A stretch of DNA of 29,307 bases, taken from positions 1 to 29,307 of the IMG/VR virus record IMGVR_UViG_3300027649_000319; one strand, 5' to 3'. Under the pieces are notes generated by a model. That model was not told the DNA's origin, searched no databases, and was given only the letters and a program-made list of their open reading frames with translations. The stretch is from a virus. A program made the position numbers and the translations under genes. Below, piece by piece: positions 463-26,511 of the stretch; positions within the stretch are counted from its first letter, which is position 1; each line of letters begins with the position of its first letter.

Positions 463-3400
463 TGGAAAACAACTACCCTAACTTAAACGCCAACGAAGAC
501 GCCTTGTTCAGCAAGGCGGCTAACGAATTGTTCAAGGGTGGGGCGATGGAGCAAAGCCATCTCTCTTACCCTATTTCGACTGGCAATATTGATGAGGCTT
601 CTAGCGGAGTCCTTTCAAATGATGAGGTCTATGACTTCATGCAGGAAAACAGGGACAGAACCTTTGACCATACGACCCCAGAGGGGCGTAATCTTTTTAG
701 ACAGTTTGAGGAGGCCAACGAAAGGCGTAACAAGTTCTCCTTCAGTCATTTCAACAAGATGGTTGGTACTGTTGCGGAAGTGCCTTCTGAAATCTTGAAG
801 GGGGTTTTTTCGAACAACCCTGTTAAGACAGCGGTCTCTGTTGCGGACGGCATCGCAAGAGACGCAAGAGACCTTTACGCACTATTAGCCCAGTCAGAAG
901 ACCCAGCGTCCCCCTTATTTAGGTTTAAAGACTTCATTACTGGCGGGGGTACAGTTGAAGATAGAATGAAACAGTTTAACGAAGCGAGATGGTGGGGCAA
1001 CAAAAGCAATGCCCTTGAAGAAGGAAAAGACACTGTCCTTGAGCATTGGGTTCCTGATGACTACAGGCAGTTCGCACGTTCATTAATTGACCCTAAGTTT
1101 GCCAATGCCGTTTCGTACATTGGCCTAGACGCTCCTTATTTCATTAAAAGTGCATTTAAGCGAAACGGGCTAAAATCTTCTATTAACGCTTTTAAGGAAG
1201 TTGGCGAAGACACCTCCAGAATGATTGTAGCACAGGAGGCAAAGCAGGCTGAAGACTGGTTCTCTACGAACGCTACTAAATTTAAAAACCTTTCACAAAA
1301 ACTTACTGGTGAAACCATTGTCGGCGTGGCCGAAACGGTGTCTAAGCCTTTTGATTTCATTAAGGAACGAATTGCGAGAGGCTCTACCGCAATTGAATCT
1401 AGGCTTGGTTTTGTACCTAATGAATTTGCAAACGGCTCTTCGACGCTTTTAAGTGATGTCACTGAAACTGTGGCTAGGGGCACCGAACTCGGCCCAGTTA
1501 GAAGCGTACTATTTTCCTTAGGGGTTAAGCCTATCACTGAATACGCTAGCGTGTTTGGAAACGAACTAATTGATGCCGCCCAAGGCGTTGTCAAAATTAA
1601 CCCTGCGTACTCGGGCATGGACCTCATGGGACGCCTTGCCCTCAATGGAGGAAGAGTCGCCATGAGCAAAGAGGCTCAGGTGGTTGCTAAATTTGCCAAT
1701 GTTGTAGTTGGCTGGCCTGCGTCTATGGCCTTCCCCACTTTTAAAAGGGCAATCGGTGACGCCGCATACATGGGCGTTCTCGGCTACGCAAACGCTAGAG
1801 GAGAAGGTGCGTCAAGCGGCTTAGGGGTTGGCTTTGCTTGGGGTGGATTTTCTGGCGGACTTAGACACATCCACAACGTCTACAACCATAGCATCGCACA
1901 CTCTAGAATCATTGATAATTTTGATAACGCACAGATTATCGAGATTTCAAAGACCAACCCAAGGCATGCCGATGAGGTCAGGGAATTTCTTAAGTTCGTA
2001 GACTCTAAGGGTTCGGCAAGAGTGTCTGCCACTGTCAGGGCACAATTCATGATGGGATGGGTAACTTCCCCAGACTCAGAAGTGAGGTTTAGAAGTGCCG
2101 AGGAAATGATTAAGGAATACGGCCAAAACGAATTTATGGATGAAGTTGGTGGAGACTTTGAGTCTGCTCGTCGCTCAAAAGGCGGAGACCTGACATTTAG
2201 CGGCAAGTCTATTATTTGGCTCAACAAGGAAGCCGCTACCCCAGAAACGGGCGTACACGAATACTCGCACAGGTTCCTAGACACGCTGTTCAGGAGAAAT
2301 GACAATACCGCACACGAAGCAGTAAGAAACTTCATTGGTAAAACTGTAGACACAGGCGTAATTCCAGACCGACTGATGGCCGAATTTATTGGCCGATACA
2401 GCAAGGACAGGCTTGGCCTTGATGACGCTTGGCTGTATAACCCGAACCCGATTGCTTCGCAAGATGGTGGGCATGGCAACATTGCTTATGCCATGGCTCA
2501 AATTGCCGATGCCAGAACTGAGTTATCGGTAGACCCCCAAAATCCATTTACGGCAGAAGAAAGAGATACTGGCTCAGGTAAGGTCACAAAGTTTAGACTT
2601 TTTCACGACCACCCAATTCTTGAAAGAATGGTGCATGAGGTGTTTGCCTACAATCAGTCGAATAGCCTTTTAAGAAAATCGCCAGACGCATTTTTGCGTG
2701 ACCCAAAGTTTAAGTCCATTAGGTACACCATGGAGAATTGGTTTACCCTAATGAACCAAAGAAAGGTCAATGACATGGAAGCCGCTGGCATCCTTGTTAG
2801 GAAGAAATCTAATGAAGGCTCAACATTGCTTGAGTCTGTATTTTGGGACAATGGAGAGTTTCAATCACTTGGATTACTAGACGAATGGACGGATAAGACC
2901 ATGAAAGACGTTCTCAGGTACGGGGACGTCAATGTCATGACGCTTTCGGGAGACCGAGCCGAAGTCTACATGAAGCAAAACGGGAAGCAAAGATTCCTTA
3001 AGGGCGGAAAAGTTAAGAGTAAGAAAGAGATTGAAGCCCAGATTAACGAGGACTCAGACAAGATTGCCGCTTCGCTTGAAAATCTGCCAGATGCCGTAAA
3101 GCCCAAGTGGGATGTGATGTCCAATGGAACAAAGAAGATAGACCTTACCAATCTTTCTAATGAAGCATGGCAGGCTGTTTACGACACTGGCGTCTACAAC
3201 AAGGAAGAGTTCGACATGCTTAGAGGTATGACCGACATCATTAGTCAGGTCGATGCTGGCAAGCCAGTGTTCAACACTCTTACGTGCCAATACTTGGGCT
3301 TCAGCACACAGGTCGTCGAAGCCTCCCTTGGCGAAAGACTAAAAGGCCGTCAAGTCCCTGTTACCCTTAGGCATTTCGCCCCTTTCTCAATTGAGTTAAC

Positions 3401-6400
3401 TATCAGCAAGGTGGACGAGAATGGCTCTCCTTTAAGAAACCCACGCTCCCATGTCACAGTCCATGCCATGGATGTAAACGTTTTAAACAGACGCAAGATG
3501 AACATGTGGCAGAGGGCTGACGTTAAGTCCATGTTCATGGACTTTGGTCACTTCTCTGAGACCTTTGTGAACTGGTTTGAGCAACAGTCACTAGACCCAA
3601 GTCAAAGAAAACCATCCGCCGAGTTCCTTAGACCAGAGTTTGGCTCCAAGGCCGAGCGTGTAAGAGATGTAATGTACGAAACTTGGGGTGGTCGTAAGCG
3701 TAATGACGAATCTTACATCAATTCCCCAGAGGGATACGCAGGGGGCAAGGACGGACCCAACTACCCTATTCACTCACTCAGGTTTGATTTGATGGCGAAT
3801 ATCCTAAGGCAGTCTCAGGTATTCCCAGAAGCCTTTAGGGGTCAACTGGGTGCTCTTAGATTTAACAAGGGTGTTGCCTACGAGCCGATGCGTAGAAATG
3901 CCATGATTGGAAACTTCGTAAGGAGAGAACTTCAAGGTGGCCGCAGTTTCTACAGCGATGGAAATGGCTATGAAATCAGAGGCTCAGAATCGTCCTTCAA
4001 ACTTTTCAACCCGTTTGGCAACCTGCTTGGCATTTTTAAGACTGTCGCAAAGGCTCAGTCTGCCGCAGACCGAAACATGGCTAAGTTGCCTAAAGAGGAA
4101 CTCATGCCTAAAACCTCGGACTTCGGGGATGCACCTACTACGGAAACCCTAGCCGACTACCTGCCTAAGCGTGGCGACGTCTATTCTGGCAGAGCAAATC
4201 TGATGCTCTACAGGGACAAGGACGGAAGATACGTGTCAAGTTCCCTTAAGGTTAACCACGCCAAGGTCACAAAGTTCGTCAACGTCTCTCTCGCTCAGGT
4301 CGCAACTAAGAACTACGACCTTAACGCCGTCCACGCTGTTAAGTTAAAAGACCTTATTGATGGCCCTCAGGAATGGAGCAATGTTCTTGGGAAATTCTTT
4401 GATAACCTAGAGGTTACAACCTCACCCTTTGCCACACTTCACGGCGGGGTAATCTGTGGATTGCGTACTGGCCCTCAAGGCATGAGAATGATTGCAGTGG
4501 ACCCGCAACTTCTCAGCGGGAAAGGCATTGATTCTTTTAAATTCAAGGTATCCGTGTGGCTTCAGGCAATGATTGCGGTTAAGCAAAAGGACGCTTTTGC
4601 AATAAGCACTCCCTTGGCTTTGTATGATGCAGATTTCATGCACATGGTTAGGCTTTCGGGGATGATGAATGAACTTCACCAGCAATTCCTTGCTGACCAA
4701 AAGTTGGCCTCAGTTTTACAGCCTGTCTCTAGCGGCGACGATGTAGACATGTTTTCTAAGTGGGCTGAAGAGAAAATTGCGGATAAGAAAGAAAGTGCGG
4801 CCCTAGAAATGCTTTTTGATGAGAGCATGAAAATGCCTAAGTCAGTCCCAAAATGGGCGACAGGCACTATCACAGACTCTCAGGGTAGAACATATCCAAG
4901 GTACGCCCACTCCCTATTTACTTATTTAGGCAGAAGACCCAAAGACGCCAACGGCACTGACATTGCCTCTCCCGTTTCGCTTATGCCCGATGAGGTCAAG
5001 GCTGACTTAAATAACTGGGCATGCACTATGGCTGAAGATTTTTTGAGCGGCAAGGCTTGGACCTTCAAAGTCCTAGACATGTTTATTGCGTCACTTAATT
5101 ACGATAAGTATGAACTTCCACGTTCTGTAAGTAATTTCCTCAAGACAGTAAATCAGTCATCTTTCCCAACTTACTATCTAGACCGAAAGAAAAACCAAGT
5201 TGTTCAGGAGGATGTCGGGTACCTTAGCACTCAGTTGCAAAGATGGAAGAGTGACGCTTTCTACCTGCATGCGGTAACCAAGGTAGGCGACAGAGAAGCC
5301 GCCAAAAACAAGAACAAGCCACTCAATGACTTGTTCGTAAAAACTAATCAAGAAACCGCAAAAGACACTATCGACGCAAAGCCTATTGCGTTTATTGGGA
5401 ATGATGCTGTCGAATTTACGGCTGAAGATTCAAACATGCCAGTTCAGGTGCTTAGACTAATGTCTGGCATGGATGGCATGCGTTCTTTTGTGCTTGTTGA
5501 AAGGTCTTCTCATAAAGGCGGATTAGGTCAGGCTAGATTCTCGGTAAACATGAGCGATATTACGCTTATCGGTGCACACAGAACCCAGTTAGACAAAGCG
5601 GGAAATCCTGCACTTGATGCTGACAAATTTACCACAGACCCTGCGTATGGGAATAACAGCCCTCTTCATTCTCTGTTAGGCGAAAAGGGGATAGCAGAGA
5701 TGCCAACAGAACTTATTGCTGGCGTCCTCGGCGTTCTCCCCTTCTCTGGACCAAAGCAGGCTGGAACGCTTCATGCCCATTACGATACTGGGTGGCATCT
5801 TGCACACATTAGTAAAATTGCTGGCGACTTAGGAATTACAGTTAATCCAAGTCAGGACTTTACTATGGCTGGATTGCAGAACCTTTCAAACAGCCTGTTT
5901 ACTGCTGGAATTGATAGTGCTGAAAAAATGTACTTCCACATGGTTGTAACTGGGGCGATGCAGGCAGAAATGGGACGCTCGGTGCTTAACGGAGACCCTA
6001 CAAACCTGCATGGCAAGTTGGGCAGTCAGAGCAAATCTAGGGATTACATTACATCTAGCGTGAAAGATTTTGGTCAAGCACTGGTAGACAGGGGCTACTC
6101 CATGATTATCCATGCCGCCGCCACGGCCTCACAGGGTTCGATGGGGGTCAAGGCGAAGGGAAGAGGGTGGGAAGTCGGAGCAGATAGTTCTATCATTAGT
6201 TCGGCGTACTCCTCCAAAGGAATTACTGGGAAGCAGGCCACGTTGAGTAAATCAATTCAATCTTCAGTCAAGATGGTCATGAATGAGATGGCTAAAAATG
6301 GCTACAATCCTGAGAGAACTAGTAAACTGATTGGCGGTCCTGCCAAACTAATGCTTGGCGGAACAATTGCTAAGGAGCAGGACATGATTGCCTCTGGTTC

Positions 6401-9400
6401 AATGCGTATCGTAAAGACAGACAGCGGCAAAACATACAAAGCCTTTGAGTTTAGTGACAAAAATGCCAGACTGCTGACTGAAAAAGTTGGTGGAAAATTG
6501 CACTTAATGCCATTTACAAAGGGTGGTGAATCAGAATTTAACGCATACTACAAAGATTTTGTCCGTGGGCAGGCTCCCATGATGTCAACCGACTCACTAA
6601 AACTTAGTGAACTCATTGACCATGATACCCTTTTTGCTCATTACCCCACTCTTAGGGATGTGCGTGTTGACTGGGACCATGGCTATGGTGCCCAGTATAA
6701 CCCCGAATCGGACACCATCACTTTAGGAATTGACCGATACATCGGCAAGGAAATGAACGAACGTGGCTCTCCTGAGCACGTTGATTACGCTTCATTTGGA
6801 ATTGATTTTGAACGTAAAGCGACAGAAACAATTCTTCATGAAATCCAACACGCTATACAGCGGCGTGAACAATGGACTGACTCGGTTTCTGTAAAAGAAA
6901 GTGCCGTATTCCAAGGTGCTGGTTTGATTGCGGCCAATAACATAACTGGCGTTTCTGGAAGAACACTTAGCACTGAAAGATTAATAAATGATAGCGGTAG
7001 GGTCTTTTTCACTAACGACCCATCTGGTGCACCTACTCAGTTCCAAAACGCACAGGTAATTCAGTCTATCATTAAGATGGCTGACTCTCCGATGCATCAG
7101 CAATTAAGGCAATACGCCTACCCTAACCTTATCAAGGTTTCGGAAGAGGTCATGCTTGGCTTGGCGGATGCCCATATGCACCACCCCGCTGGACAGATGT
7201 CTAGGGTAAACGCTGAAAAACTTTCTATCAAACTTGGTGAAATCCGAAAAGGAGCCATAGAATCTATGGAGTCCTTTAAGCGTGGAGACCTTACCGAAAA
7301 ACAGGCTAAAGACGTTGTGTGTGAGCATGTGATTAAACTTGAAGAACTTATTGAGAGAGGAGTCGGAATGCTTACTTTAGAAAATTCACCAATAGCAGAC
7401 AGGTTGTACAACGGTATGAACAACTCGTTAAAGTACATGAGAAGGTCAATGCAGGCACTTAACGCATTTCAGGCCATTAGTAAGATGGCTGACGCTGGAC
7501 CCAATGGCCTTGATGTCGGTTCTTTTACCGCCAAAGCAAAAGAGATTTTTAGCACTGTGAGTACAATGCAGTATTTATCTCAAAAGCATGAGATTGAGGC
7601 TGACCTTACTGAAAGTAGGTCGAGAATGACCCAAGAACAGTTAAATCAAACTGGCATTAACCCCGATATGACTAGGGTCAATGGACTTGACGCCATTAGT
7701 GGAGCAATGGATATCGGCTATGCTGGAAATAGCATCAGAGCCATAGGAATTGCCCTGAAAAACAAAACCCCTATTCGTGTAGCCAATTTGATGATTGGCG
7801 GAACTGGAGACCACAAATTAAAACCCGAAGAAAAATCTAACGAGCCTCTTAAACTAATGGCTAAGGGTGCACTTGTATCTTGGGTGGTCAGAACTTTAGA
7901 GAATGAACTTCAGCAACTTAATGCCGTGGCTTTTTATGGAAGGGGATGGGAAATTGACAAAGAAGGCGTTGCTCGCCTTACCTTTAGGCAGGGTGTTATC
8001 AGGGTTAAAGGTAACAAAAACGTAGCCCTTGACGTATTACGAATCCATGGTGTTGGCGAATTTGATAAGGCCAGCATACAGCAACAAGGCGAAGGCAACT
8101 TAGGGATTTATGCCGCTATTGCGAGAGACGGACAGTCCACCATAACCCTTCAAGACATTGCTAGAATTATTGACGGTATTGTTGTCACAGAAAGTGAATT
8201 AACTACTCCTACGGAAGCCATGGACATCATCACCAGAGATGATTTCCCTTCTGTCATAAAGGTAAAAGAACTCCCTGAAATCCTTAAAAGCAGGGGCATC
8301 AGCGATGACGGTTTGTTGCTTTCTAATGCCGCCCTATTTGCTCAAATAGACCTAGCAGACTTTCCCCAGACTCTTACTAAGGGCGAGTTGATTGACATGG
8401 TGTCTATTGTCCACAGGCAGTTGGTGCATGAAAGAGTTGCCACTAGGTCTATGGGCTCTGGTACGCTAAGAAAGGCCAAATTTGAAAAAGGACAAACAAG
8501 TCCAGAAAAGTTGCTTACTGTTATAGATGATAATTTTGGGGGAAATTCATACGCAAACAACCCAGTAAAAGATTTTGTAGATACGCTCTTAGGGAGCGAT
8601 GCGATGCCACCGCAGTTTGATACAAACACGATTCGCCCTGAACTCACAAATAATTCTTACAAATTTGGCATTCTTAATGTTAATTTTGAAACTGGAATGG
8701 CAATATTGGACCCTAAAAAACCAGACTGGGTTGAGCCAGAAATTTGGACTAAATTATTAGAAAAGTGGAAAAAGAAGGGCTACATGGACGCAGGTTATTT
8801 TGGAATGAAACAATCTTTGCAAGATACCGATGCCAACCGCCATATGAGATTTGAAGTGCAAGCAAAGGCGGACCAACTTAACAGAAATCTCACAAGAAAG
8901 ATGTTTTTGATAAAACCGTTTTATGAACAAATCCTGACTAAACTTAGTTCCGACTTTGAAGGCTATAACGATAGTTCTCAGAAATTAATTGCTGTTAAAT
9001 TTTCCCTTCTTGATGAAGTTTCGTTGGCTATGATTGAGCCAGACCTTGCTGGATTTAGAACTGGAATTAACGTTGGAATTGGCACTTCCTCAAATAGGGG
9101 ATTTGGAAACAATATGAACTGGGCAGAAAGTGAAATGGATGATAGGTATACCGAAACGGGCAGAACTTACAATCAACTTGGTATTGCTCCAGCCATTTAC
9201 GCCAGTGGTTATAGCCCAGAAATAAGAGATGCTTTTGTTGAACTACAAACTCTTATGCCAATGGTCGGATTTACCTCCGAAAGTAGTGCTAGGGGCGGTA
9301 GTCTAAGTAATACAGATGTTGTTATTGGAAGGCGTACAGTAAATTTATACCAATTAATTGACGGCATGGGAGACAGAAAACTCGCCGCCGACGGTAACAA

Positions 9401-12400
9401 TATTCAAGACAATTTACTGACAATTACTACATCTGCTTTGGCTACTAAGAGTGTAGTTGAACAAATGTTAAGTGAATTGTCTGACACTGAAAACGTTGAC
9501 CTAGAAAGTATGCGGTTCTTAAGCAGGCTGTCCGTCCAAGCCGCCACCCTCGCCCAGACCGCTACCCATTTAATCGGTGATGCAGACAACGCTAGCAGGG
9601 AATATGTTCATCGAAACGTACAAAGAGACGCACCAAACGAGTCGGTTCAAAATAGGTTTATTCAAGAACTGGCTTTATTAAGAGGTTATCGTGGGGCCGA
9701 TGGTGGTGTTGTAATTCAAGAAAACTTAGTTGCAGACACGTCTGCCGCAATGTCTCACAAGAGGAACGTTGAAATTCCAATCTGGAATCATACGCTTGCT
9801 CCTGCTGGTATTGGAGGTTTGGATTTTAACGCTCCTGCTGTGCAAGCCTCGGTCATGAAAGATTTAGCGGCTCGGTCTATTATCTTTGGTGCCATTAATG
9901 ATGGTGCTGGTAATGTAACTAGGCCGATGTCCTACATTGGGCCTTTGTCTGACCTTGCAAGAACAATTGTCGCATCCCAGCAACAAGGAACACGTTCTCA
10001 GCACCCAGTAACAATTGATTTATCAAGTCCGTTTACCAGCGGAACTCATGCTTTACATTCTATTTTGTATCTTGCTTCGCAGGAGAGGGGCGTTGGGCTT
10101 ACTGACGCTTTAACTGCGGATTCTGAATTCTACAAAATGTGGGCAGACCCAATTAAAATAAGCGAATTTAATCGTCAGCATATCAGTGGGCATAGCGTTG
10201 AAAGTTTTGCCGTAGGCGTTGCTCCTTTCTTAGCGGTGGCAATGTCTGAAAGGGCTCCATTGCTTAAAGACGGAAAACTTACTGTAGGTGATATCCTTAG
10301 TGTAGAACAAAGAGCATTATTGCAATCGGCTAGACAGGCCTACAGAGACCACGATTTTGCCAACAAGTTTACTCCAGAAATGGATGCGGCAAGACATGCG
10401 TTCTTTTTCACCTTAAGTAGTCAGCAAATTTCTGCAATCGTAAGCCATTTAGTCTCTGGGAACTCTACCTATGGGATTATTACGATGCTTGGGGTTATGA
10501 ATGCACACCAAAACATCAAAGTGCTTCCAGAGGCTCCAAATCTTTCTCAAAAATTAGGCAATAACGCACGTGCTGAAATGAATAGACAGTTGGATTACTA
10601 CCTTACCGAGGGCAGGTACCAAACTGAAATGGGCACTAATGACACTAATGGAGTTAAAGATGTCTACCAGAGCGGGAAAAATCACGTTTGGGTCGAGATG
10701 ATGGCTAATATTGTACTTACAGACCCTTTAACTCAAAACGCATTACTAGCCGCTTGGTCTGTTATGGATAATTCGGCAAGGGCTTACGTTCCCGATATGG
10801 TTAATGGGACGCCACAAAGAAATAGACCGCACGTTAGTTTAATTACGCATATTTCCCCCGTTAATTACGCCTACCAGCAACCTACCTTCCTTGCATCAAA
10901 TACCCAAGTTGGTCGTAACTTTGCTTTATCAAGTACACATCCAACAAGAGTGCACTCTATTGTAGCCACCGATACTAACCAAATTAAAGAAAGAGAATTG
11001 GACATGCCAGCAATTGAATTCTCTGGAGAGCAAATGGGAATGGCTGAGGCTTTATTTAAAATTTATGACCCTGCATCGGTTAATGCGGATGCTTTTTCCG
11101 CTCCGACTGACAACGTTGCAATAATTAACCAACAATCAGATGCTTTAATGGGTGTCCATAAGGCAGAAGTTGGATTTAGAGGTTCTGAAATTAGCCAAAA
11201 GTTTATTAGAAAAAATGTTGTTGATTCAATTATCGCTCAAGCAAAACGTATGGGTACTGATAAGGTTAGCATTGAGCCAGCCAGATTTAGGTTAAGTGGA
11301 CGAAGTGTAACAAGAAAATCTTCAAGAATAACCGAAAGCGAAGGTGGCTCTAGTGGCAATAAATACAGGTCACACGCACAAGGGTTTTCCTCTCTTTTTG
11401 CTGGAATGGGACTTGTCCCTGACAAGGAAAATGGGGTTTCCGTAATGGCCAACAATAGCGAAAATTACCCCTTTATGACAAGCCCCATGCTTGGGTTTGC
11501 TTGGAAGCGTCTTGAGGATGGAAGGCTTGTTGTCAATATGACTGGAGACCATGCTGGTTACAAATCTGGTTATTTAGGCACTCAATACACTCCTACTACT
11601 CAATCTCCAAGAACAAAAATTCCAATTGGTTTTAACATTCAAGAATCACTTGGCTATAATCCATACAGCGGGGAAATAAGTCCTCCAAACATCCATTTAG
11701 CCCTATTTGGAGGAATGTCTATGGCGAATTACAACACGGAGCCTGCTGGCATGAATGCCGCTATGTCTATTGGTGGAGAATCTTGGCGTAAACAATTGGT
11801 AAAATCTGCCAGAGAAAAAATTAACATGGGTGATGGAGTTAGGACTAGGTATGAAGGTGTTGATATTAACAAAAGCGGTATTGTGTATAAAAATGCAAGA
11901 ATGCATGCAGGGCTAGACACCTTAATGTCGTCCAATGAAGCACACAATGACGCTGAGGCCATTAATATGGCTTATTCAATTCTTAACCACAGAACTGGTC
12001 ACCAATACGCAACTTTGACGCTTCCCAAAGATTCATCTCCAGAAGTTGTTCGTGCGTTTATTCATAACATTTTGATTGGGGCATCAATGTCTAGTTTAAT
12101 GCAGACGCTTTCAAGAAATGCTAACGCACAGGGATTTAATACGCCTTTCCTTGGAGACGGAAATCAAATTTACGCCACCATGCTGAACATTCCTGATGGC
12201 CTAACGCCTAACAAGTTAAGCAGAATTAGTGCACTTATGAGTAATTCGGAAACGGGTGGCCTTAAGGATTCAATGGATATGGAGGGAATTATTAAAAATT
12301 CCAAAGGCAGTCAGGTCAGACAGTTCGGAGGAAGTTTAAGCCCAGAAGAGCAACGAGGCGGTTTGGCCCGAAGGGCTAGCATGGTACTTGCCAGAAACCC

Positions 12401-15400
12401 AAGATTGTTAGCCGACATTGAGTCACTTGCTGAAAAGGCTACAAAGTCTGACCATGGATGGTCTATTCCTGACGCAGAAAGGCACCTAACCAAAAATGGC
12501 GACACCTCACTTGCCATTGAACTAATGTTCCCAAATAGACCTGAAATGCAAAAGTTTGCTTGGGACGGCAAGGAATCTAACGGCGTGTCTATTGTCCACA
12601 GGGGGCCCAAGGCTAAGCCTACTGGTTATTTTGTTACTTACGATTATCAGACTGGCATAGACCAGTACGGAAACCCTATCACAACCAGAAAGGTAGTCCC
12701 CGCTAAAACGCTTTCCGAAGCCGAAGGTATTAGGTCTAAGTTTGGTGTTACGGCAAGCAAAGCAATCATGGCTCAAGCCTTGGTCGCCGCAGGCATGGCT
12801 GAGCCACAAATTAAACAAGGCGTTACTAACGCAGATTCAAATGTCGATTTTAGCGTTCAGGACGGCAAATTGTTAAGGCAAAATGAAACAGGATTAGCCA
12901 TGGTTTTTAGCAAAAATTATTACGTGGGCGATTTCGGAAAGCCGATGTCTCGGGATGAGGCTACGGCTGTTAGCCAAACCTTAAGTAATGGCTCCGTTCT
13001 TCAAACTCAATTGCCATCCATAAAGGCAGGAACTGCTAATCTTATGATTGGGAACAGGGACGCCAAGGAACTGGAAGGCTTGCTCAGAAGAAAACTTACC
13101 TTTGGCAACGGAAGCGGACCTATCGAGTTCTCGTCTAAATTGATGAGGGTTGTCGCTTATGGTAAGCGTAAACAGGGAAGAGACCTTTACCCAGACAGCA
13201 TGACTGGAAATGAATGGTACAAGTTTTTTAAAGAACATACTATTTCCAAGGACGAAATGCGTATGACTGGCATTGTGCATTTACTGCACGAAAACCTTAA
13301 TACACCCCTCACCAGACAAGACCTTGCCGAATTTATTTATACTGTTTACCCAAGAACCAGCAGGCAGGTTAGAAGGGCCAACAACAACAAGATTATTGCA
13401 GAAAACGCTAACATTAAGTCTGGCTCCCTAAGTGGCGTTTATAATCTTCCGTTTATCGAAGACGTTCAGGCAAAAGAAGATTTCGTTGTTAACACGCACT
13501 TGGATAACCTGCAAAAGGTCTCTGACTTTATTGACCTTCATAGGGGCGTGGATGAGTTTAAGGCGGACACCGTAGCCCTCTCTGAGGCCCTTCGTAAATC
13601 TATCCAATTTGCCGTACAAGAGATGGGTCTTCCAGCAGACGCCTCGCCTCTCACGAACTTTGATTTAAAAACCTCCATTGAGTACATGCGTAATGTTTAT
13701 AAAAACACTACAGAAACATCTGCAACAATTGAAGGATTTTTTGGAGAAGGAAGAGGCATAAGACCAGCCCACTTAGATTACATTATGAGAGATGCAGTTT
13801 GGGGAAGGCTTAGCGACCAATACAAAACCATTGAGGGTTCACTTGGTGATTTAGGATTTATTAATCCGTATGAAATTGAATACGCTAACCAGACTAAGGA
13901 AAGAAATCCATTTAACCCAACTTCGGTACTTGAAATTGCTAATTCAGAATCATTACACGGAGGCATAGGCGTAATGAGAACATACCCATATTCTAGTGAA
14001 ATTCCGCCTTATCCATCTTTCAGCCAGCAGGGTGTTTATTACCACGGAGGAAATGCTCACGCTAGCATGGCTACGTTTACGGGACACTATCAATCAAGTC
14101 CACATTTTGTTGAAGTTACCAATTCCAGATTATTAAAGGAGTCACAAAATGCTAAAGATGCCCTTAAAAAAAGAATGGAAAATTCTTATGTTTCCGAAGA
14201 AGAAAAAAAGAAGATTCAAAGCGTTATAGACACCATTGAGCGTGTTCAATTTGTCAGAAAATTGGTTGGTAGTTCGGTTGCCGATTTCAGTCATTACAGC
14301 GATAATGACACTGGGACATTCCAATTAGGACATGTCAGAAGTACAGAAACGGTACTTTCTGGTGAATACGGAATAGCGAGCCCCCTTGAACCTGCCTTCC
14401 ATGGAACTGACTCAGTTAGTGGATATGTTTACAAGCCTGAAACAATTATTGGGATTGAAGAAATACAATCTGATTCCTTTCAGTATCACACATTTGGTCC
14501 ACCCAATAAAGTCGAGCAGTCGCTTCCAGATTCAATAGAACAAATTGAAGGATTAAAGAAGGCTGGGGATTTAGCCAAACTTGTTGAAACTCAAAGAAGA
14601 CTCCAAGCCTCTGTAAAAGATGCTCAAACGATTATTAACCAATATCTAAGAAAACAGATGATTAGTAATCTTGGTGACAACAGAATGAACACAATGTTTT
14701 TGCAAAAAAACCTTTCTATTCTCTCTCCGTTTGAACGCTACATGTTAAGGGATAGTCTTAAACTTAAAGATACTGGCAGGACTATTAAAGTACCAGAGCA
14801 CTACAGGCAGTATATCGGGAAAGACACTATACCTGTTTACGACCACATTGATTATGAAATTTTTAGAGACGATGATAATACTTTATTTGAAACGGAAGAA
14901 AACCGCCGTATGAGTGTTCAAGTTGGAAGAAAAATTGCTATCCAGATTAACCACCTTGCTCACGGAGACGTTTTAGCCTCTTTGCTTCCTCCTTCTTTTA
15001 TGGGGTTAAAATTTGAAGAAGATACATTCCATTATAGAGAAGACGCTTCAGGTAGACCTATGCCAACTCCAAGTTTTGTATTTATGGTATATGCGGCTCA
15101 AGACCCAGAAGTAATTAATAAATCTGTGCATATTGGTGAATCTCAAAGCAACATGGTTGGTGCTTCTGAAATCGACTGGGACGCAGTAGCGGCCCGAACC
15201 GTTGATAGAATTGAATCAATGAAAGAAACAGTTGTTAATTTGGAAGCCTCAATGGACCAAAACAATCTTCGTGAACTTGCTGGGAATAAAGCCAGCAAAC
15301 TTGCCAAGGCTAAGTTCTTTGAAAACCTTATAGCCACCTATCGTGAGCGTTTAGAGTCTCCAAGAAATCAAATGTTAATGCCTGATACCACAATTTCTGG

Positions 15401-17423
15401 CAACCCTTTGTTTACTACGCAAGGGCAGGGTGGGGTTGGGCCATTAGAAAATCAAATTAAACAAAACCCAAACAGGTACACACTTGTTAATGCTGAACTT
15501 CCAGTGGACAGGATGCATCCCGCACAATTGTTATTTCCTCATGGAGGAATGCTTAAAGACGTTGTGAATCGTCACGCTTTAGATTTTGGTTCTTTTGAAA
15601 TTACGTCAGAACATGATTTTGGAGTTGATGCAAACCAACTGGGTATTCAATTTGTAGCGGCCAATACGGCTCTTGGTCAATTTGCCGCAAGTTCTATTTC
15701 TTCGCTTATAGCACATGCTCTTAATATGGGCAACGTCCCTGCTCAAATTAATGATTTACAAAAAGCAATTGATACCCTTAAGCCTCAAATACCAATTTCT
15801 AACAACGAAAGAAATGTAGAAATTGCAAATTCTCTGCCTTTCGGGGTGGAAGACATTTACAAGCCAGTTGCCCTTATGAGTACCGTACTTCGGGCCGCTA
15901 ATGCTGGGCTTGGTGCAATTACTTACGCTGACGCAAGAATGCAGGTACTAAGGGGTCACTCTATGCAGGTTTCCCCTGCGTTGCTTATTGGAAGACAGGC
16001 TAATTTATTCCCCCTTTCTTCTGATAGTACTTTTGGGCTAACAATGTCTCAGATTTCTTTGTTACCTGATGCTATTAAAAACAAATTACACGGAGGTTTG
16101 TTTGAAAGGTTTGCACAGGCAGATAATGACTTCTTTATTTCCGCATTTAGGACTGGCAAAGATTTTGAACACAACGGGGTGGCGGGTGATTTAAGAATTC
16201 ATTTAACGTACGCCGCCAAAGAAGCATTACCTTACCTCATGGTTGATGGCATAGGCCCAGATGATTTTCAAAATAATACAGAGTTTTGGAGATTTGTTAG
16301 CAAGGGTGGCGACAAAATTATTGATGCGGCAAATAACTTGAACCGTCCAAATGATTCCGTTGGAGCGACTGTTCAAAGCAACCTTCTTGACGCTGACGGC
16401 AAGCCTTACAGGCCAAAAGACGGGGCCACCACATTCCTTAAAAAATATTATGGTACTGTTGTCAGTGGGGAGAAAAATGAAAATCAACGAATTATTGATT
16501 CTGCTGTAGCCAATGCTGGGTCTTCAATCATTTATTGGGCGGAGACTGGCAGGGCTATGGGCTACGTATCGCAGTATGGTGCCCCTTCTTGGTTTATTGA
16601 GTCTATTATGTTCGGGCAAAAAAGGTCCGCTATTGACGCCTTTTCTACTGACGCATTTAAGAGGCCCGTTGTAACTATTGCTAATGATGGCTCTTATACG
16701 CTGATAGACCCAAACACAGGACGTGCAATAATGGAAAAAATTACTAATCCGCAAATGCTGAGAGAGGCGTTTTTCCAAAATTCTAAATACCAAGGCAAAT
16801 TGCCATACATTTCTAAATTCTTAAGTGAATGGTCACAGGTTGGTGCATATGTAACTCAAGGCCACACCAACGGATTGGTAGCAGGAGAATCAATAAGACA
16901 ATCTTTATCAGACACTTTTGACCCGTTAAATTTTCAAAATAAAGGAAATATTATTCCTACTGATTTTGGCGGTGTTGTTCGTGGCAAACCTGATAACCTT
17001 GGCTACATGAACCAAGGGTCTTCTTTCACTACCGCACGTACTAAACAAATGCAACCGATGGGCAACGTTGCTAATTTTATTGGACCAAAAGTTTGGATGA
17101 AACACATTAACAAGGTTAATGTCGGTGACTCTCAAGCGTTGTCGAATGCCATGAGCACCTATTTTTCCTGTGGGGGTCCAGTCCTCAGATTTAAGCCAAA
17201 CATGCCTACCGAGGCCCACAAAAAGGCTTTTAGAAAGAAAATTGTTGAAGGCATTGCTTTACTTATGCCCTCTAACGGCGGGAAAGGTGGAGCCCAAGCC
17301 AACACCCAAACATTAGAAACTCTTTCAAACATGTACAAAAATTTCAGCAAAATAACCATGGGTCGCAAAATCCCAACACAAGGCGAATCCCTTGAAGACG
17401 AGTATGAATCCTCCAGACCCTGA
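462..17423 (+). CDS. Giant 5,653-aa polyvalent protein (putative ejected virion protein) with two HExxH metallopeptidase motifs
   Basis: A single open frame of about 17 kb. Visible landmarks are: a hydrophobic, glycine-rich stretch at about residues 410-473 that could interact with membrane; a zinc-peptidase motif HEYSH at 599-603, preceded by WLNKEAATPETGV as in polyvalent-protein metallopeptidases; a second motif HEIQHAIQ starting at 2126, whose context (LRDVRVDW upstream, HAIQRREQW) resembles the LPD23-type domain; a 'GNEW..SKDEM..TG..LTRQDL' module near 4249-4300; and IEEIQSD at 4665-4671. The last two are recurrent elements of phage large polyvalent proteins. Such proteins are thought to be packaged and delivered with DNA to act early in infection. 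Position between a probable virion gene and the holin supports late expression. The start overlaps the previous stop (TAATG). Base composition varies strongly along the gene. Enzymatic activity and possible self-processing are inference. Confidence 0.88.
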   Translation: MENNYPNLNANEDALFSKAANELFKGGAMEQSHLSYPISTGNIDEASSGVLSNDEVYDFMQENRDRTFDHTTPEGRNLFRQFEEANERRNKFSFSHFNKMVGTVAEVPSEILKGVFSNNPVKTAVSVADGIARDARDLYALLAQSEDPASPLFRFKDFITGGGTVEDRMKQFNEARWWGNKSNALEEGKDTVLEHWVPDDYRQFARSLIDPKFANAVSYIGLDAPYFIKSAFKRNGLKSSINAFKEVGEDTSRMIVAQEAKQAEDWFSTNATKFKNLSQKLTGETIVGVAETVSKPFDFIKERIARGSTAIESRLGFVPNEFANGSSTLLSDVTETVARGTELGPVRSVLFSLGVKPITEYASVFGNELIDAAQGVVKINPAYSGMDLMGRLALNGGRVAMSKEAQVVAKFANVVVGWPASMAFPTFKRAIGDAAYMGVLGYANARGEGASSGLGVGFAWGGFSGGLRHIHNVYNHSIAHSRIIDNFDNAQIIEISKTNPRHADEVREFLKFVDSKGSARVSATVRAQFMMGWVTSPDSEVRFRSAEEMIKEYGQNEFMDEVGGDFESARRSKGGDLTFSGKSIIWLNKEAATPETGVHEYSHRFLDTLFRRNDNTAHEAVRNFIGKTVDTGVIPDRLMAEFIGRYSKDRLGLDDAWLYNPNPIASQDGGHGNIAYAMAQIADARTELSVDPQNPFTAEERDTGSGKVTKFRLFHDHPILERMVHEVFAYNQSNSLLRKSPDAFLRDPKFKSIRYTMENWFTLMNQRKVNDMEAAGILVRKKSNEGSTLLESVFWDNGEFQSLGLLDEWTDKTMKDVLRYGDVNVMTLSGDRAEVYMKQNGKQRFLKGGKVKSKKEIEAQINEDSDKIAASLENLPDAVKPKWDVMSNGTKKIDLTNLSNEAWQAVYDTGVYNKEEFDMLRGMTDIISQVDAGKPVFNTLTCQYLGFSTQVVEASLGERLKGRQVPVTLRHFAPFSIELTISKVDENGSPLRNPRSHVTVHAMDVNVLNRRKMNMWQRADVKSMFMDFGHFSETFVNWFEQQSLDPSQRKPSAEFLRPEFGSKAERVRDVMYETWGGRKRNDESYINSPEGYAGGKDGPNYPIHSLRFDLMANILRQSQVFPEAFRGQLGALRFNKGVAYEPMRRNAMIGNFVRRELQGGRSFYSDGNGYEIRGSESSFKLFNPFGNLLGIFKTVAKAQSAADRNMAKLPKEELMPKTSDFGDAPTTETLADYLPKRGDVYSGRANLMLYRDKDGRYVSSSLKVNHAKVTKFVNVSLAQVATKNYDLNAVHAVKLKDLIDGPQEWSNVLGKFFDNLEVTTSPFATLHGGVICGLRTGPQGMRMIAVDPQLLSGKGIDSFKFKVSVWLQAMIAVKQKDAFAISTPLALYDADFMHMVRLSGMMNELHQQFLADQKLASVLQPVSSGDDVDMFSKWAEEKIADKKESAALEMLFDESMKMPKSVPKWATGTITDSQGRTYPRYAHSLFTYLGRRPKDANGTDIASPVSLMPDEVKADLNNWACTMAEDFLSGKAWTFKVLDMFIASLNYDKYELPRSVSNFLKTVNQSSFPTYYLDRKKNQVVQEDVGYLSTQLQRWKSDAFYLHAVTKVGDREAAKNKNKPLNDLFVKTNQETAKDTIDAKPIAFIGNDAVEFTAEDSNMPVQVLRLMSGMDGMRSFVLVERSSHKGGLGQARFSVNMSDITLIGAHRTQLDKAGNPALDADKFTTDPAYGNNSPLHSLLGEKGIAEMPTELIAGVLGVLPFSGPKQAGTLHAHYDTGWHLAHISKIAGDLGITVNPSQDFTMAGLQNLSNSLFTAGIDSAEKMYFHMVVTGAMQAEMGRSVLNGDPTNLHGKLGSQSKSRDYITSSVKDFGQALVDRGYSMIIHAAATASQGSMGVKAKGRGWEVGADSSIISSAYSSKGITGKQATLSKSIQSSVKMVMNEMAKNGYNPERTSKLIGGPAKLMLGGTIAKEQDMIASGSMRIVKTDSGKTYKAFEFSDKNARLLTEKVGGKLHLMPFTKGGESEFNAYYKDFVRGQAPMMSTDSLKLSELIDHDTLFAHYPTLRDVRVDWDHGYGAQYNPESDTITLGIDRYIGKEMNERGSPEHVDYASFGIDFERKATETILHEIQHAIQRREQWTDSVSVKESAVFQGAGLIAANNITGVSGRTLSTERLINDSGRVFFTNDPSGAPTQFQNAQVIQSIIKMADSPMHQQLRQYAYPNLIKVSEEVMLGLADAHMHHPAGQMSRVNAEKLSIKLGEIRKGAIESMESFKRGDLTEKQAKDVVCEHVIKLEELIERGVGMLTLENSPIADRLYNGMNNSLKYMRRSMQALNAFQAISKMADAGPNGLDVGSFTAKAKEIFSTVSTMQYLSQKHEIEADLTESRSRMTQEQLNQTGINPDMTRVNGLDAISGAMDIGYAGNSIRAIGIALKNKTPIRVANLMIGGTGDHKLKPEEKSNEPLKLMAKGALVSWVVRTLENELQQLNAVAFYGRGWEIDKEGVARLTFRQGVIRVKGNKNVALDVLRIHGVGEFDKASIQQQGEGNLGIYAAIARDGQSTITLQDIARIIDGIVVTESELTTPTEAMDIITRDDFPSVIKVKELPEILKSRGISDDGLLLSNAALFAQIDLADFPQTLTKGELIDMVSIVHRQLVHERVATRSMGSGTLRKAKFEKGQTSPEKLLTVIDDNFGGNSYANNPVKDFVDTLLGSDAMPPQFDTNTIRPELTNNSYKFGILNVNFETGMAILDPKKPDWVEPEIWTKLLEKWKKKGYMDAGYFGMKQSLQDTDANRHMRFEVQAKADQLNRNLTRKMFLIKPFYEQILTKLSSDFEGYNDSSQKLIAVKFSLLDEVSLAMIEPDLAGFRTGINVGIGTSSNRGFGNNMNWAESEMDDRYTETGRTYNQLGIAPAIYASGYSPEIRDAFVELQTLMPMVGFTSESSARGGSLSNTDVVIGRRTVNLYQLIDGMGDRKLAADGNNIQDNLLTITTSALATKSVVEQMLSELSDTENVDLESMRFLSRLSVQAATLAQTATHLIGDADNASREYVHRNVQRDAPNESVQNRFIQELALLRGYRGADGGVVIQENLVADTSAAMSHKRNVEIPIWNHTLAPAGIGGLDFNAPAVQASVMKDLAARSIIFGAINDGAGNVTRPMSYIGPLSDLARTIVASQQQGTRSQHPVTIDLSSPFTSGTHALHSILYLASQERGVGLTDALTADSEFYKMWADPIKISEFNRQHISGHSVESFAVGVAPFLAVAMSERAPLLKDGKLTVGDILSVEQRALLQSARQAYRDHDFANKFTPEMDAARHAFFFTLSSQQISAIVSHLVSGNSTYGIITMLGVMNAHQNIKVLPEAPNLSQKLGNNARAEMNRQLDYYLTEGRYQTEMGTNDTNGVKDVYQSGKNHVWVEMMANIVLTDPLTQNALLAAWSVMDNSARAYVPDMVNGTPQRNRPHVSLITHISPVNYAYQQPTFLASNTQVGRNFALSSTHPTRVHSIVATDTNQIKERELDMPAIEFSGEQMGMAEALFKIYDPASVNADAFSAPTDNVAIINQQSDALMGVHKAEVGFRGSEISQKFIRKNVVDSIIAQAKRMGTDKVSIEPARFRLSGRSVTRKSSRITESEGGSSGNKYRSHAQGFSSLFAGMGLVPDKENGVSVMANNSENYPFMTSPMLGFAWKRLEDGRLVVNMTGDHAGYKSGYLGTQYTPTTQSPRTKIPIGFNIQESLGYNPYSGEISPPNIHLALFGGMSMANYNTEPAGMNAAMSIGGESWRKQLVKSAREKINMGDGVRTRYEGVDINKSGIVYKNARMHAGLDTLMSSNEAHNDAEAINMAYSILNHRTGHQYATLTLPKDSSPEVVRAFIHNILIGASMSSLMQTLSRNANAQGFNTPFLGDGNQIYATMLNIPDGLTPNKLSRISALMSNSETGGLKDSMDMEGIIKNSKGSQVRQFGGSLSPEEQRGGLARRASMVLARNPRLLADIESLAEKATKSDHGWSIPDAERHLTKNGDTSLAIELMFPNRPEMQKFAWDGKESNGVSIVHRGPKAKPTGYFVTYDYQTGIDQYGNPITTRKVVPAKTLSEAEGIRSKFGVTASKAIMAQALVAAGMAEPQIKQGVTNADSNVDFSVQDGKLLRQNETGLAMVFSKNYYVGDFGKPMSRDEATAVSQTLSNGSVLQTQLPSIKAGTANLMIGNRDAKELEGLLRRKLTFGNGSGPIEFSSKLMRVVAYGKRKQGRDLYPDSMTGNEWYKFFKEHTISKDEMRMTGIVHLLHENLNTPLTRQDLAEFIYTVYPRTSRQVRRANNNKIIAENANIKSGSLSGVYNLPFIEDVQAKEDFVVNTHLDNLQKVSDFIDLHRGVDEFKADTVALSEALRKSIQFAVQEMGLPADASPLTNFDLKTSIEYMRNVYKNTTETSATIEGFFGEGRGIRPAHLDYIMRDAVWGRLSDQYKTIEGSLGDLGFINPYEIEYANQTKERNPFNPTSVLEIANSESLHGGIGVMRTYPYSSEIPPYPSFSQQGVYYHGGNAHASMATFTGHYQSSPHFVEVTNSRLLKESQNAKDALKKRMENSYVSEEEKKKIQSVIDTIERVQFVRKLVGSSVADFSHYSDNDTGTFQLGHVRSTETVLSGEYGIASPLEPAFHGTDSVSGYVYKPETIIGIEEIQSDSFQYHTFGPPNKVEQSLPDSIEQIEGLKKAGDLAKLVETQRRLQASVKDAQTIINQYLRKQMISNLGDNRMNTMFLQKNLSILSPFERYMLRDSLKLKDTGRTIKVPEHYRQYIGKDTIPVYDHIDYEIFRDDDNTLFETEENRRMSVQVGRKIAIQINHLAHGDVLASLLPPSFMGLKFEEDTFHYREDASGRPMPTPSFVFMVYAAQDPEVINKSVHIGESQSNMVGASEIDWDAVAARTVDRIESMKETVVNLEASMDQNNLRELAGNKASKLAKAKFFENLIATYRERLESPRNQMLMPDTTISGNPLFTTQGQGGVGPLENQIKQNPNRYTLVNAELPVDRMHPAQLLFPHGGMLKDVVNRHALDFGSFEITSEHDFGVDANQLGIQFVAANTALGQFAASSISSLIAHALNMGNVPAQINDLQKAIDTLKPQIPISNNERNVEIANSLPFGVEDIYKPVALMSTVLRAANAGLGAITYADARMQVLRGHSMQVSPALLIGRQANLFPLSSDSTFGLTMSQISLLPDAIKNKLHGGLFERFAQADNDFFISAFRTGKDFEHNGVAGDLRIHLTYAAKEALPYLMVDGIGPDDFQNNTEFWRFVSKGGDKIIDAANNLNRPNDSVGATVQSNLLDADGKPYRPKDGATTFLKKYYGTVVSGEKNENQRIIDSAVANAGSSIIYWAETGRAMGYVSQYGAPSWFIESIMFGQKRSAIDAFSTDAFKRPVVTIANDGSYTLIDPNTGRAIMEKITNPQMLREAFFQNSKYQGKLPYISKFLSEWSQVGAYVTQGHTNGLVAGESIRQSLSDTFDPLNFQNKGNIIPTDFGGVVRGKPDNLGYMNQGSSFTTARTKQMQPMGNVANFIGPKVWMKHINKVNVGDSQALSNAMSTYFSCGGPVLRFKPNMPTEAHKKAFRKKIVEGIALLMPSNGGKGGAQANTQTLETLSNMYKNFSKITMGRKIPTQGESLEDEYESSRP

Positions 17424-18534: not shown

Positions 18535-18603
18535 TGTGTTGTGAGGGTGCCGAGAGGTTAAATGGGGGTCACAGTTGGTTCTGTCCCTACAGCCCATAAC
18601 ACA
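18535..18603 (+). other. Structured intergenic element at the lysis/early junction
   Basis: The 130-nt gap between the convergent blocks holds a long stem: 18535-18546 pairs with 18593-18603 (11 bp with one bulged A). Inside is a second hairpin, GGGG (18565-18568) plus ACAG (18571-18574) with CTGT (18581-18584) plus CCCT. The internal segment GCCGAGAGGTTAAA recalls the D-arm of serine or tyrosine tRNAs, but no proper anticodon or T arm can be drawn. It lies in the 3' end of the lysis transcript and abuts the terminator. It may be a decayed tRNA or a 3' stability element. Confidence 0.35.
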
Positions 18604-18631
18604 AAAAAGGAGCACCCGTTTGAGTGCTCCT
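18603..18631 (-). terminator. Intrinsic terminator of the minus-strand block
   Basis: A perfect 8-bp stem, AGGAGCAC (18608-18615) and GTGCTCCT (18624-18631), with an 8-nt loop. Read on the minus strand it is followed by a run of six T. It lies 22 nt past the stop of the last minus-strand gene. On the plus strand the hairpin follows six A and is trailed only by GCTTGTTTG, so termination of lysis transcripts there would be weaker. Confidence 0.85.
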
Positions 18632-18652
18632 GCTTGTTTGATTTGGCTTCTT

Positions 18653-18994: not shown

Positions 18995-19010
18995 GTGTGT
19001 GTTTTGTTGT

Positions 19011-19022
19011 GCCCTTTCGGGC
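19011..19022 (-). promoter_or_regulatory. GAAA-tetraloop hairpin in the 5' leader
   Basis: On the minus strand the sequence reads GCCCGAAAGGGC, a 4-bp GC stem closed by a GNRA loop. It lies 16 nt upstream of the ATG at 18994 and 6 nt after the tRNA-Arg(UCU) 3' end. The linker to the start codon is ACAACAAAACACACAC. An identical hairpin with a near-identical linker occurs at 25655-25666. A 5' mRNA-end stabiliser after tRNA processing is one interpretation. Confidence 0.55.
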
Positions 19023-19028
19023 GAAAGT

Positions 19029-19100
19029 TGCTCCCTCTAGGAATCGAACCTAGATTCACTGCTTAGAAGGCAGTTGTTCTATCCATTGAACTAAGGAAGC
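19029..19100 (-). tRNA. tRNA-Arg (anticodon UCU)
   Basis: Full cloverleaf on the minus strand. The acceptor stem is GCTTCCT/AGGGAGC with one G-T pair, and the D arm is GTTC/GAAC. The anticodon arm is ACTGC-CTTCTAA-GCAGT, giving anticodon UCU. The T arm is CTAGG-TTCGATT-CCTAG and the discriminator base is A. CCA is not encoded. It would read AGA, which is used heavily in the phage genes here. It begins only 6 nt after the ERF stop codon, so it is probably excised from the same transcript. Confidence 0.95.
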
Positions 19101-25219: not shown

Positions 25220-25423
25220 TTAGAATGATTGGATGCCTACGTGCCCAGCACAGGCTGGACTGATGGTCTTAGCACCGCCATTGTGGACGAGTGCCGCATC
25301 CTTGACCTTCCTTTCAAGGAAGGAGTCTAGGACGGAAAGAAACTGTGAGGAGACCCTCTTGCCATTGAAGGCCTTGACCATTGCCTTAACGGCAGAGGGT
25401 TTAATGTATTTGTATTTAGCCAT
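25220..25423 (-). CDS. Small histone-fold-like DNA-binding protein (candidate)
   Basis: A 67-aa basic protein with the order of a single histone fold: helix KPSAVKAMVKAFN (9-20), loop GKRVS (21-25), long helix SQFLSVLDSFLERKVKDAAL (26-45, continuing to 48), loop GGAKTIS (49-55) with the characteristic K/R-T-I, and a short third helix. The spacing between the VS and KT elements is shorter than in archaeal histones and, from memory, close to bacterial single-fold histones such as Bdellovibrio Bd0055. The C-terminal tail is short. It would bind or bend DNA as a dimer. The ATG follows AAACACACAC. Fold assignment is from pattern only. Confidence 0.5.
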   Translation of the reverse strand: MAKYKYIKPSAVKAMVKAFNGKRVSSQFLSVLDSFLERKVKDAALVHNGGAKTISPACAGHVGIQSF

Positions 25424-25537: not shown

Positions 25538-25639
25538 TTAGTTCCAGAGTAATCCGACTGCTACACAGACAGCCACTAATATAGCGGTGTCGATGATTAC
25601 AGCGAAGACCCAGAGGGTGCTGATTTGTTTGTTGTTCAT
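25538..25639 (-). CDS. 33-aa single-TM membrane protein
   Basis: ATG at 25639. The protein has a short polar start (MNNKQIS) followed by one hydrophobic helix, LWVFAVIIDTAILVAVCVAV, to near the C-terminus. The frame is open further upstream, but ATG 25639 is preceded by a GAAA-tetraloop hairpin and the leader ACAACAAACAACAAC, matching other starts in this block, so the short form is favoured. Small early membrane peptides can modulate host membrane processes; no specific role can be given. Confidence 0.6.
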   Translation of the reverse strand: MNNKQISTLWVFAVIIDTAILVAVCVAVGLLWN

Positions 25640-25654
25640 GTTGTTGTTTGTTGT

Positions 25655-25666
25655 GCCCTTTCGGGC
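25655..25666 (-). promoter_or_regulatory. GAAA-tetraloop hairpin in the 5' leader (second copy)
   Basis: An identical copy of the minus-strand hairpin GCCCGAAAGGGC, 15 nt before the ATG at 25639; the linker also begins ACAACAAA. The gap upstream to the tRNA (25667-25830) contains several further short stems, for example CTCGT/ACGAG around 25719-25735 and CCTCT/AGAGG around 25780-25799, but no gene beyond a possible 8-codon ORF. Confidence 0.5.
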
Positions 25667-25793
25667 GGTAATTGCAAGGGGCCCACCTATGCCTAGAGTG
25701 GCTTGCGTCCCGCTCGTCCTTTTAACGAGTTTAGGGAACCCCAAATTGTGTGAGGGTGATAGGATAGCCCTACCTTCTTACCTCTTTGTCTTA

Positions 25794-25830: not shown

Positions 25831-25905
25831 TGGTGATTCAGGGGAGATTCGAACTCCCATCATCAGGTTCGTAGCCTGAGGTCCTATCCGTTAGACGACC
25901 GAATC
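25831..25905 (-). tRNA. tRNA-Arg (anticodon ACG), CCA encoded
   Basis: Complete cloverleaf on the minus strand. The acceptor stem is GATTCGG/CTGAATC with one G-T pair. The D arm is GTCT...AGGAC. The anticodon arm is TCAGG-CTACGAA-CCTGA, giving ACG (read as ICG after deamination). The T arm is GGGAG-TTCGAAT-CTCCC, the discriminator is A and CCA is encoded (25831-25833). It reads CGU/CGC/CGA codons. Unlike the other tRNA-Arg in the window it carries its CCA, suggesting a different origin. Confidence 0.96.
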
Positions 25906-25946
25906 GTAGATATTTAATGCATGAACTGTTGATTTGAAAGAGCGAG

Positions 25947-26020
25947 GTTGGCCTTAACTGATAGACTAGGTAGTACGTCGTACTCACCCTTTCAGTTACT
26001 GGTATTACCCAGCGGCCAAC
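25947..26020 (-). ncRNA. Predicted compact three-way-junction RNA element
   Basis: On the minus strand P1 is GTTGGCC/GGCCAAC (26014-26020 with 25947-25953). After one G comes P2, CTGG-GTAATA-CCAG (25999-26012), with no gap before P3, TAACTGA/TCAGTTA (25992-25998 with 25955-25961). P3 carries an apical extension with AGG/CCT and AGTAC-GAC-GTACT. One A closes the junction. It lies 41 nt upstream of tRNA-Arg(ACG) in the 210-nt gap 25906-26115, which holds no credible gene. Three perfect helices of 7, 4 and 7 bp in one nested order are unlikely by chance. No known ribozyme or riboswitch core was recognised; the plus strand could fold too. Confidence 0.4.
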
Positions 26021-26115
26021 TCCAGTGAACATGTACAGCCAGCCACCTCATGCAAGCAACAATGTGTAGATGTTTTGTAAATATCTGTAAGTTACTGATA
26101 ACCAACGAAATAAAC

Positions 26116-26511
26116 TTACAACAATACTGACAAATTTGGCCTAATCAGGGGCTTATTGTGCCCAGCATAGGCCATTCCACGTATGGCACTGTATTCAATA
26201 TACTCTACGCATGAATCATGGAAGTGGTCATCCTGTTTATTGTATTCAACTTCTAATGACTTAAATGTTTTGTATTTGTTTAGTTCATACAACGTCATGA
26301 GCGTGTGCCAATAGACCAGCATTACTCTATCATACACTACGTGATATGACCAATCACTTGGGTCTTGCACTATATCAACGATTGCATGGTCATACCATTC
26401 TCTCGGCTCCAGCACCGTCATGTTAACGCCTTCAATATCAGAGAACTCATTGATGACTTCCCCAAGAGCACTTTGGGGTAATTTAAATCCACTAATCTTT
26501 TTCTTGGCCAT
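26116..26511 (-). CDS. Hypothetical 131-aa protein
   Basis: The first gene of the minus-strand block. It has a basic start (MAKKKISGFKLP), then acidic and aromatic segments (DPSDWSYHVVYDRVMLVYWH) and histidine-rich QDDHFHDSCVEYIEY. No family was recognised. It starts 38 nt from the divergent lysozyme gene; the two share an intergenic region with tandem palindromes, so joint regulation is likely. There is no clear Shine-Dalgarno. Confidence 0.65.
   Translation of the reverse strand: MAKKKISGFKLPQSALGEVINEFSDIEGVNMTVLEPREWYDHAIVDIVQDPSDWSYHVVYDRVMLVYWHTLMTLYELNKYKTFKSLEVEYNKQDDHFHDSCVEYIEYSAIRGMAYAGHNKPLIRPNLSVLL

Follow-up and report, generated by a model that had tools for sequence, protein, structure and literature searches.

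A putative hairpin-then-boxA antitermination signal with a hypervariable arm at the head of a phage early operon

What does a compactly folded RNA do in front of a tRNA at the start of a phage early transcript? The question is raised by positions 25947-26020, minus strand, of the stretch of DNA analysed here (the window, 29,307 nucleotides), which comes from a virus record. A first-pass annotation had described a three-way junction at this place and proposed a riboswitch, a ribozyme or a small RNA domain heading the early transcript. The evidence assembled below favours a reading absent from that annotation, with a probability of roughly two in three: the element would be the structured half of an rrn-like antitermination signal, a hairpin and then a boxA, at the head of the early operon. 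Bacteria and phages employ boxA sequences to let RNA polymerase read past terminators.

The three helices of 7, 4 and 7 bp are present exactly as annotated. Read on the minus strand, the element runs GTTGGCC-G-CTGGGTAATACCAG-P3-A-GGCCAAC, then CTCGCTCTTTCAAATCAACAG. The closing helix P1 pairs GTTGGCC (26014-26020, minus), which is predicted to lie on or beside the transcript's 5' end, with GGCCAAC (25947-25953, minus); both arms are supported by the fold and by covariation, over 22 distinct leaders. P2 (25999-26012, minus) is a 4-bp hairpin, CTGG-GTAATA-CCAG, supported by the fold and by comparison of relatives. P3 (25955-25998, minus) is a hypervariable arm composed of a basal 7-bp helix (TAACTGA/TCAGTTA), an internal loop and an apical stem. 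The joints also agree with the annotation: P1 is flanked on each side by a single unpaired base, P2 abuts P3 directly, and P3 bears the apical stem. The plus strand folds with a minimum free energy of -27.8 kcal/mol (z -4.26, 0 of 200 shuffles as stable) and the minus strand with one of -29.4 kcal/mol (z -3.6, 1 of 200), so the fold withstands comparison with shuffled sequence, the first of two tests by which the annotation proposed it could be refuted. Stability alone does not single the element out, as 7 of 3655 minus-strand windows of 74 nt are equally or more stable, and in a longer sequence context the z-score of the fold is only -1.5.

The annotation had also set the element apart from tRNAs and hammerheads and had recognised no known class in it. 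ARAGORN and Rfam detect only the neighbouring tRNA-Arg, and the Rfam scans support the absence of a hammerhead. These scans covered the window, a 600-nt sub-region at E<=10 and the relatives; only tRNAs were significant, and the element has no Rfam match at the gathering threshold or at E<=10, in the window or in the relatives.

The functional strand is taken from the sequence to be the minus strand, because the surrounding genes all lie on it: gene and tRNA scans of the window place there a 131-aa open reading frame (26116-26511), a tRNA-Arg with anticodon ACG (25831-25905; ARAGORN and Rfam) that is the first gene of the leader transcript, and the early genes. The first conserved open reading frame after the leader encodes a predicted membrane peptide of 33 aa (25538-25639, minus) and is conserved in L003, L005 and L007. 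The minus strand also carries genes for recombination and replication (Erf-like, exonuclease VIII-like, DnaC-like and O-like), and the early operon of about 7 kb terminates at a T-tailed hairpin near 18600-18632. One or more tRNAs also lie downstream in most relatives' leaders. The pairing itself points to the same strand: across leaders, P1 contains about ten G-U wobbles when read as minus-strand RNA and one A-C, as would be expected if the minus strand is the one transcribed and folded.

Upstream of P1 lies a predicted promoter, with a -35-like hexamer TTGCAT (26050-26055, minus) and a -10-like hexamer CATGTT (26028-26033, minus). In nearly every relative's leader TTG(A/C)xx is followed by N16 and a CATxxT-like -10, which reads CATGTT, CATGGT or CATTGT at one register about 7 nt before P1. 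The arrangement TTGxxx-N16-CAxxxT, 7 nt and then the 5' arm of the stem holds in every leader checked except that of L098, which has TTGACG at the right place without a -10 that matches the pattern. From the usual distance between a -10 hexamer and the start site, transcription is predicted to begin at about 26020-26022 on the minus strand, which would place the stem at the 5' end of the transcript. A generic consensus promoter scan does not list this promoter because its -10 is CATGTT and not TATAAT; the case for it is therefore one of conservation.

More than 25 related contigs were collected by scans for neighbouring proteins and for DNA patterns. Even where protein identity falls to about 30%, the promoter-like element, the 7-nt gap and P1 keep one register in almost all leaders, and the layout common to the family is TTGxxx-N16-CATxxT, 7 nt, the 5'-terminal stem P1, 2-3 nt and boxA. 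The full P1-P2-P3 arrangement precedes the same tRNA-Arg in six distinct relatives (G002-G006 and L068); G001 duplicates the window almost exactly. The three-way junction of L033 is more distantly related, and in the remaining relatives a plain hairpin alone occupies the homologous place. Judged from these sequences, what was a simple hairpin has expanded into a three-way junction in the window's lineage. Within this lineage, P1, P2 and boxA are conserved; the P2 loop reads GTAAYM, and the fourth pair of the P2 stem varies between G-C (some genomes) and T-A (G002 and G003). A match to the P1-P2 pattern in L067 was set aside as a chance match in coding sequence.

The second refuting result named by the annotation, a lack of compensatory changes in homologues, is contradicted most strongly by P1. 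Over the 22 distinct leaders, standard pairs fill 92% of P1 cells against 70.2% in shuffled controls, and 36 cells are double changes against 11.6; the covariation score is 0.631, against 0.092 or less for slid versions. The 3' arms were chosen by their pairing, which makes the covariation partly circular, with the register fixed on the 5' side by the promoter and on the 3' side by boxA.

Three nucleotides after P1 lies a boxA-like sequence, GCTCTTTCAAA (25933-25943, minus), which is unpaired in the predicted fold and matches the consensus GYTCTTTAANA (PMC5725501) at 10 of 11 positions. The mismatch is a C for an A at position 8. The match is 10/11 throughout the window's lineage, and the six distant relatives L088, L091, L092, L096, L098 and L099 reach 11/11 at the corresponding place; for each of these six, 0-1 of 200 shuffled leaders match as well. 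In most lineages boxA lies 2-3 nt downstream of the stem, and the junction of stem and boxA reads TGTTCTTTAACAA in L088 and CGCTCTTTAACAATCAA in L098. In 239 kb from the window's lineage, searched on both strands, GYTCTTTMANA occurs at the element in all seven records and once elsewhere; in the three complete genomes G004-G006 it occurs only at the element. Matches are weaker in L083, L085, L087, L090 and L093-L095 (8-9/11, not significant alone), and in L033 boxA is no longer recognisable. The boxA of L077-L081 is partial (YCTCTTTACAA) and displaced downstream, beyond a second long stem. This second stem (AACTGAAG...CTTCAGTT) stands, in L077, L079, L080 and L081, in place of the three-way junction, encloses a variable multi-hairpin region and abuts the partial boxA.

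Because the constants of the family are a promoter, a 5' stem and a boxA that follows it, we infer transcription antitermination and, with it, promoter activity and Nus binding. Polymerase would start at TTGCAT-N16-CATGTT, with P1 within a base or two of the 5' end; the RNA would fold into P1-P2-P3 without drawing the downstream boxA, GCTCTTTCAAATCAACA, into any pairing. As in rrn operons, where a boxB hairpin is followed by boxA, host NusB-S10 would bind boxA and, together with NusA, NusG and SuhB, make the polymerase Rho-resistant. This resistance could carry polymerase past the untranslated leader and the tRNA and along the early operon of about 7 kb, while the junction might present or space boxA, prevent it from pairing and shield the 5' end. 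An intrinsic terminator was considered for the same position and rejected: a terminator would have a T run after a GC-rich stem, but the stem here is followed by CTCGCTCTTTC, and the consensus scan does not list it.

The rrn leader, ordered boxB-boxA-boxC (PMC10250234), is the closest parallel. As there, a hairpin is closely followed by boxA just downstream of a promoter, in front of an untranslated structured RNA, and the boxA consensus is matched, perfectly so in some relatives. The stem directly 5' of boxA covaries and ends 2-3 nt before it, and the predicted promoter is conserved at a fixed distance in nearly all relatives. In contrast to rrn leaders, the signal here belongs to a phage early operon, its hairpin occupies the predicted 5' terminus itself, and the window's lineage has elaborated that hairpin into a three-way junction, one arm of which is hypervariable. 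Lambda-type nut sites likewise combine boxA and a hairpin in a phage early transcript, but their order is boxA-boxB, whereas here the hairpin precedes boxA wherever a boxA is recognised and is much larger. No N-like arginine-rich protein was recognised by eye among the early open reading frames.

The position of P1 invites another explanation, in which the stem only shields the 5' end of the early transcript from pyrophosphohydrolase and RNase E and its shape alone matters. This would account for P1 beginning at the predicted start site in all relatives and for helices that are kept as their sequence drifts; it leaves unexplained the boxA, the 2-3 nt spacing between stem and boxA, and the conserved P2 loop, and is considered unlikely.

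The antitermination reading must also accommodate P3, the part of the element that changes most. Among the seven distinct genomes every P3 is unrelated in sequence to the others (pairwise identity 18-58%), and this divergence is independent of the identity of the upstream flank (69-99%); the sequences flanking the arm match at 70-100%. G005 and G006 make the point most clearly. These circularly permuted genomes of 47.6 kb are about 95% identical in their alignable parts and 99-100% identical for hundreds of bases around the element, where P3 is wholly different. Among the low-identity patches between the two, P3 is the only swapped block inside a conserved RNA with flanks that are 99-100% identical. 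Most of the other patches fall in broadly divergent or replaced stretches; one is a small intergenic insertion, and one is probably a record-end artefact, where the circularly permuted records overlap. Separately, a stretch of about 470 nt in the early region (L050, 9708-10176) is replaced between these two near-identical genomes.

Each of the seven P3 arms nevertheless closes with a basal helix of 5-7 bp. With L033 added, the basal helices sum to a length of 46, whereas 5000 shuffles average 26.7 and never exceed 40. The partly shared P3 of G002 and G003 is, taken alone, weak evidence of covariation, with only 1 of 9 common pairs changed on both sides. Since the basal helix is kept while its sequence is replaced, the shape of the arm appears to be selected and its sequence either not selected or selected to differ.

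This behaviour bears on several other readings of the element. HK022 putL, a structured RNA of about 70 nt, lies just downstream of the early promoter PL (PMC9378689), and a put-like RNA would bind RNA polymerase through the junction and antiterminate without protein factors, the boxA match being secondary. Comparable size, position and multi-stem form, together with P1 and P2 sequences conserved within the lineage, speak for such an RNA. However, put is built of two side-by-side stem-loops that no stem closes and acts independently of boxA, whereas the conserved features here are the closing P1 and boxA; distant relatives keep only a plain hairpin and a perfect boxA, and a P3 sequence with no conservation at all is not what a surface contacting polymerase would be expected to show. 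A put-like mode of action is thus judged quite unlikely.

A hypervariable arm in otherwise identical genomes also resembles a specificity determinant, as in the immunity or antisense RNAs of the P4 CI and P1 C4 type, likewise small structured RNAs in early leaders; P3 would then be the region that pairs with a target, and a location at the head of the early operon would suit such an RNA. The search for an exact complement to P3 in its own genome argues against it, with none longer than in unrelated genomes, the complete genomes G005 and G006 included. In contrast to those RNAs, neither a cognate complementary target nor an Rfam match, to C4 included, was found for the element, nor was a convincing opposing promoter. 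Antisense pairing is accordingly a very improbable role.

Of the earlier proposals, that of an RNA domain heading the early transcript stands, while that of a riboswitch or self-cleaving ribozyme does not fit an arm that is replaced wholesale. The compact three-way junction in a 5' leader does recall both, but there is no Rfam class, no ligand-binding-like or catalytic core conserved beyond the P2 loop, and only a plain hairpin in distant relatives; what follows is a tRNA, with no regulated open reading frame or expression platform directly after the junction. Either function would be extremely surprising. Equally remote is a site that acts as DNA, for example a recombination, attachment or origin hairpin whose P3 is exchanged by recombination. 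Replacement of P3 as a block between identical flanks would suit it; against it stand the excess of G-U over A-C wobbles in P1, which fits minus-strand RNA, a register tied to promoter and boxA, the lack of any integrase noticed nearby, and a neighbouring conserved dyad that is absent from genome contigs. This dyad (TTTCGTTGGTTATCA...ACTTAC, 26088-26119, minus) lies just 3' of the 131-aa gene, is kept in distant relatives and does not occur in GTDB genome contigs; operator, processing site and terminator are all candidate roles for it.

Under the preferred antitermination reading, the swapping of P3 hints at an arms race over an antitermination control switch. The classic precedent for conflict over an antitermination RNA is the action of HK022 Nun on lambda nut. 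Nun excludes lambda by binding lambda nut RNA (PMC5386594), and antitermination RNA can therefore be a target in conflict between phages. By extension, P3 might be a specificity tag under diversifying selection, an arm that phages swap to evade sequence-specific attack while keeping the fold. The attackers would be co-infecting or resident relatives, or the host, and would recognise sequence as Nun does on nut RNA. This proposal is speculative and on balance doubtful; if true, P3 would define exclusion groups among near-identical phages.

Known phage antitermination signals come mostly from lambdoid coliphages. What is added here is an uncultured phage family with one conserved hairpin-then-boxA signal at the predicted transcript start, and within it a lineage in which the hairpin has turned into a three-way junction, with an arm that is swapped among genomes otherwise identical there. 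A shape kept while its sequence is fully replaced constitutes a rare natural experiment, and it makes testable the idea that conflict among phages, or between host and phage, is directed at antitermination RNAs.

Neither the locus nor P3 gave a BLAST match in phage or plasmid records, two scans of genome contigs found no host or prophage relative, and no close cultured relative was found. The DUF932 protein has no match among the phages searched, and the exonuclease shares only about 25-30% identity with cyanophage and enteric phage proteins. More than half of the window is occupied by a single open reading frame of 5653 aa (462-17423, plus), without a Pfam match in the two long pieces searched.

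Further structured motifs and a small protein were observed along the early transcript. A motif GGTTCCC...GGGACGCAAG with a variable loop recurs in the part of the leader that separates the tRNA from the first open reading frame (L003 5340-5380 and 5540-5590; window about 25690-25740, minus). A short hairpin, GCCCGAAAGGGC, with an A-rich tail lies 5' of the start codons of two early genes (about 25640-25675 and 19000-19030, minus), one copy after each tRNA region and without an obvious Shine-Dalgarno sequence. A conserved early gene (25220-25423, minus) encodes a basic protein of 67 aa, with a predicted structure consisting of a helix at residues 9-20, a long helix at 26-47 and a short helix at 56-61. 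Its five best fold matches in the PDB are all the Bdellovibrio histone HBb, at low confidence (pLDDT 65, E 0.14-0.34), and a phage-encoded histone-fold protein is possible on this structural model.
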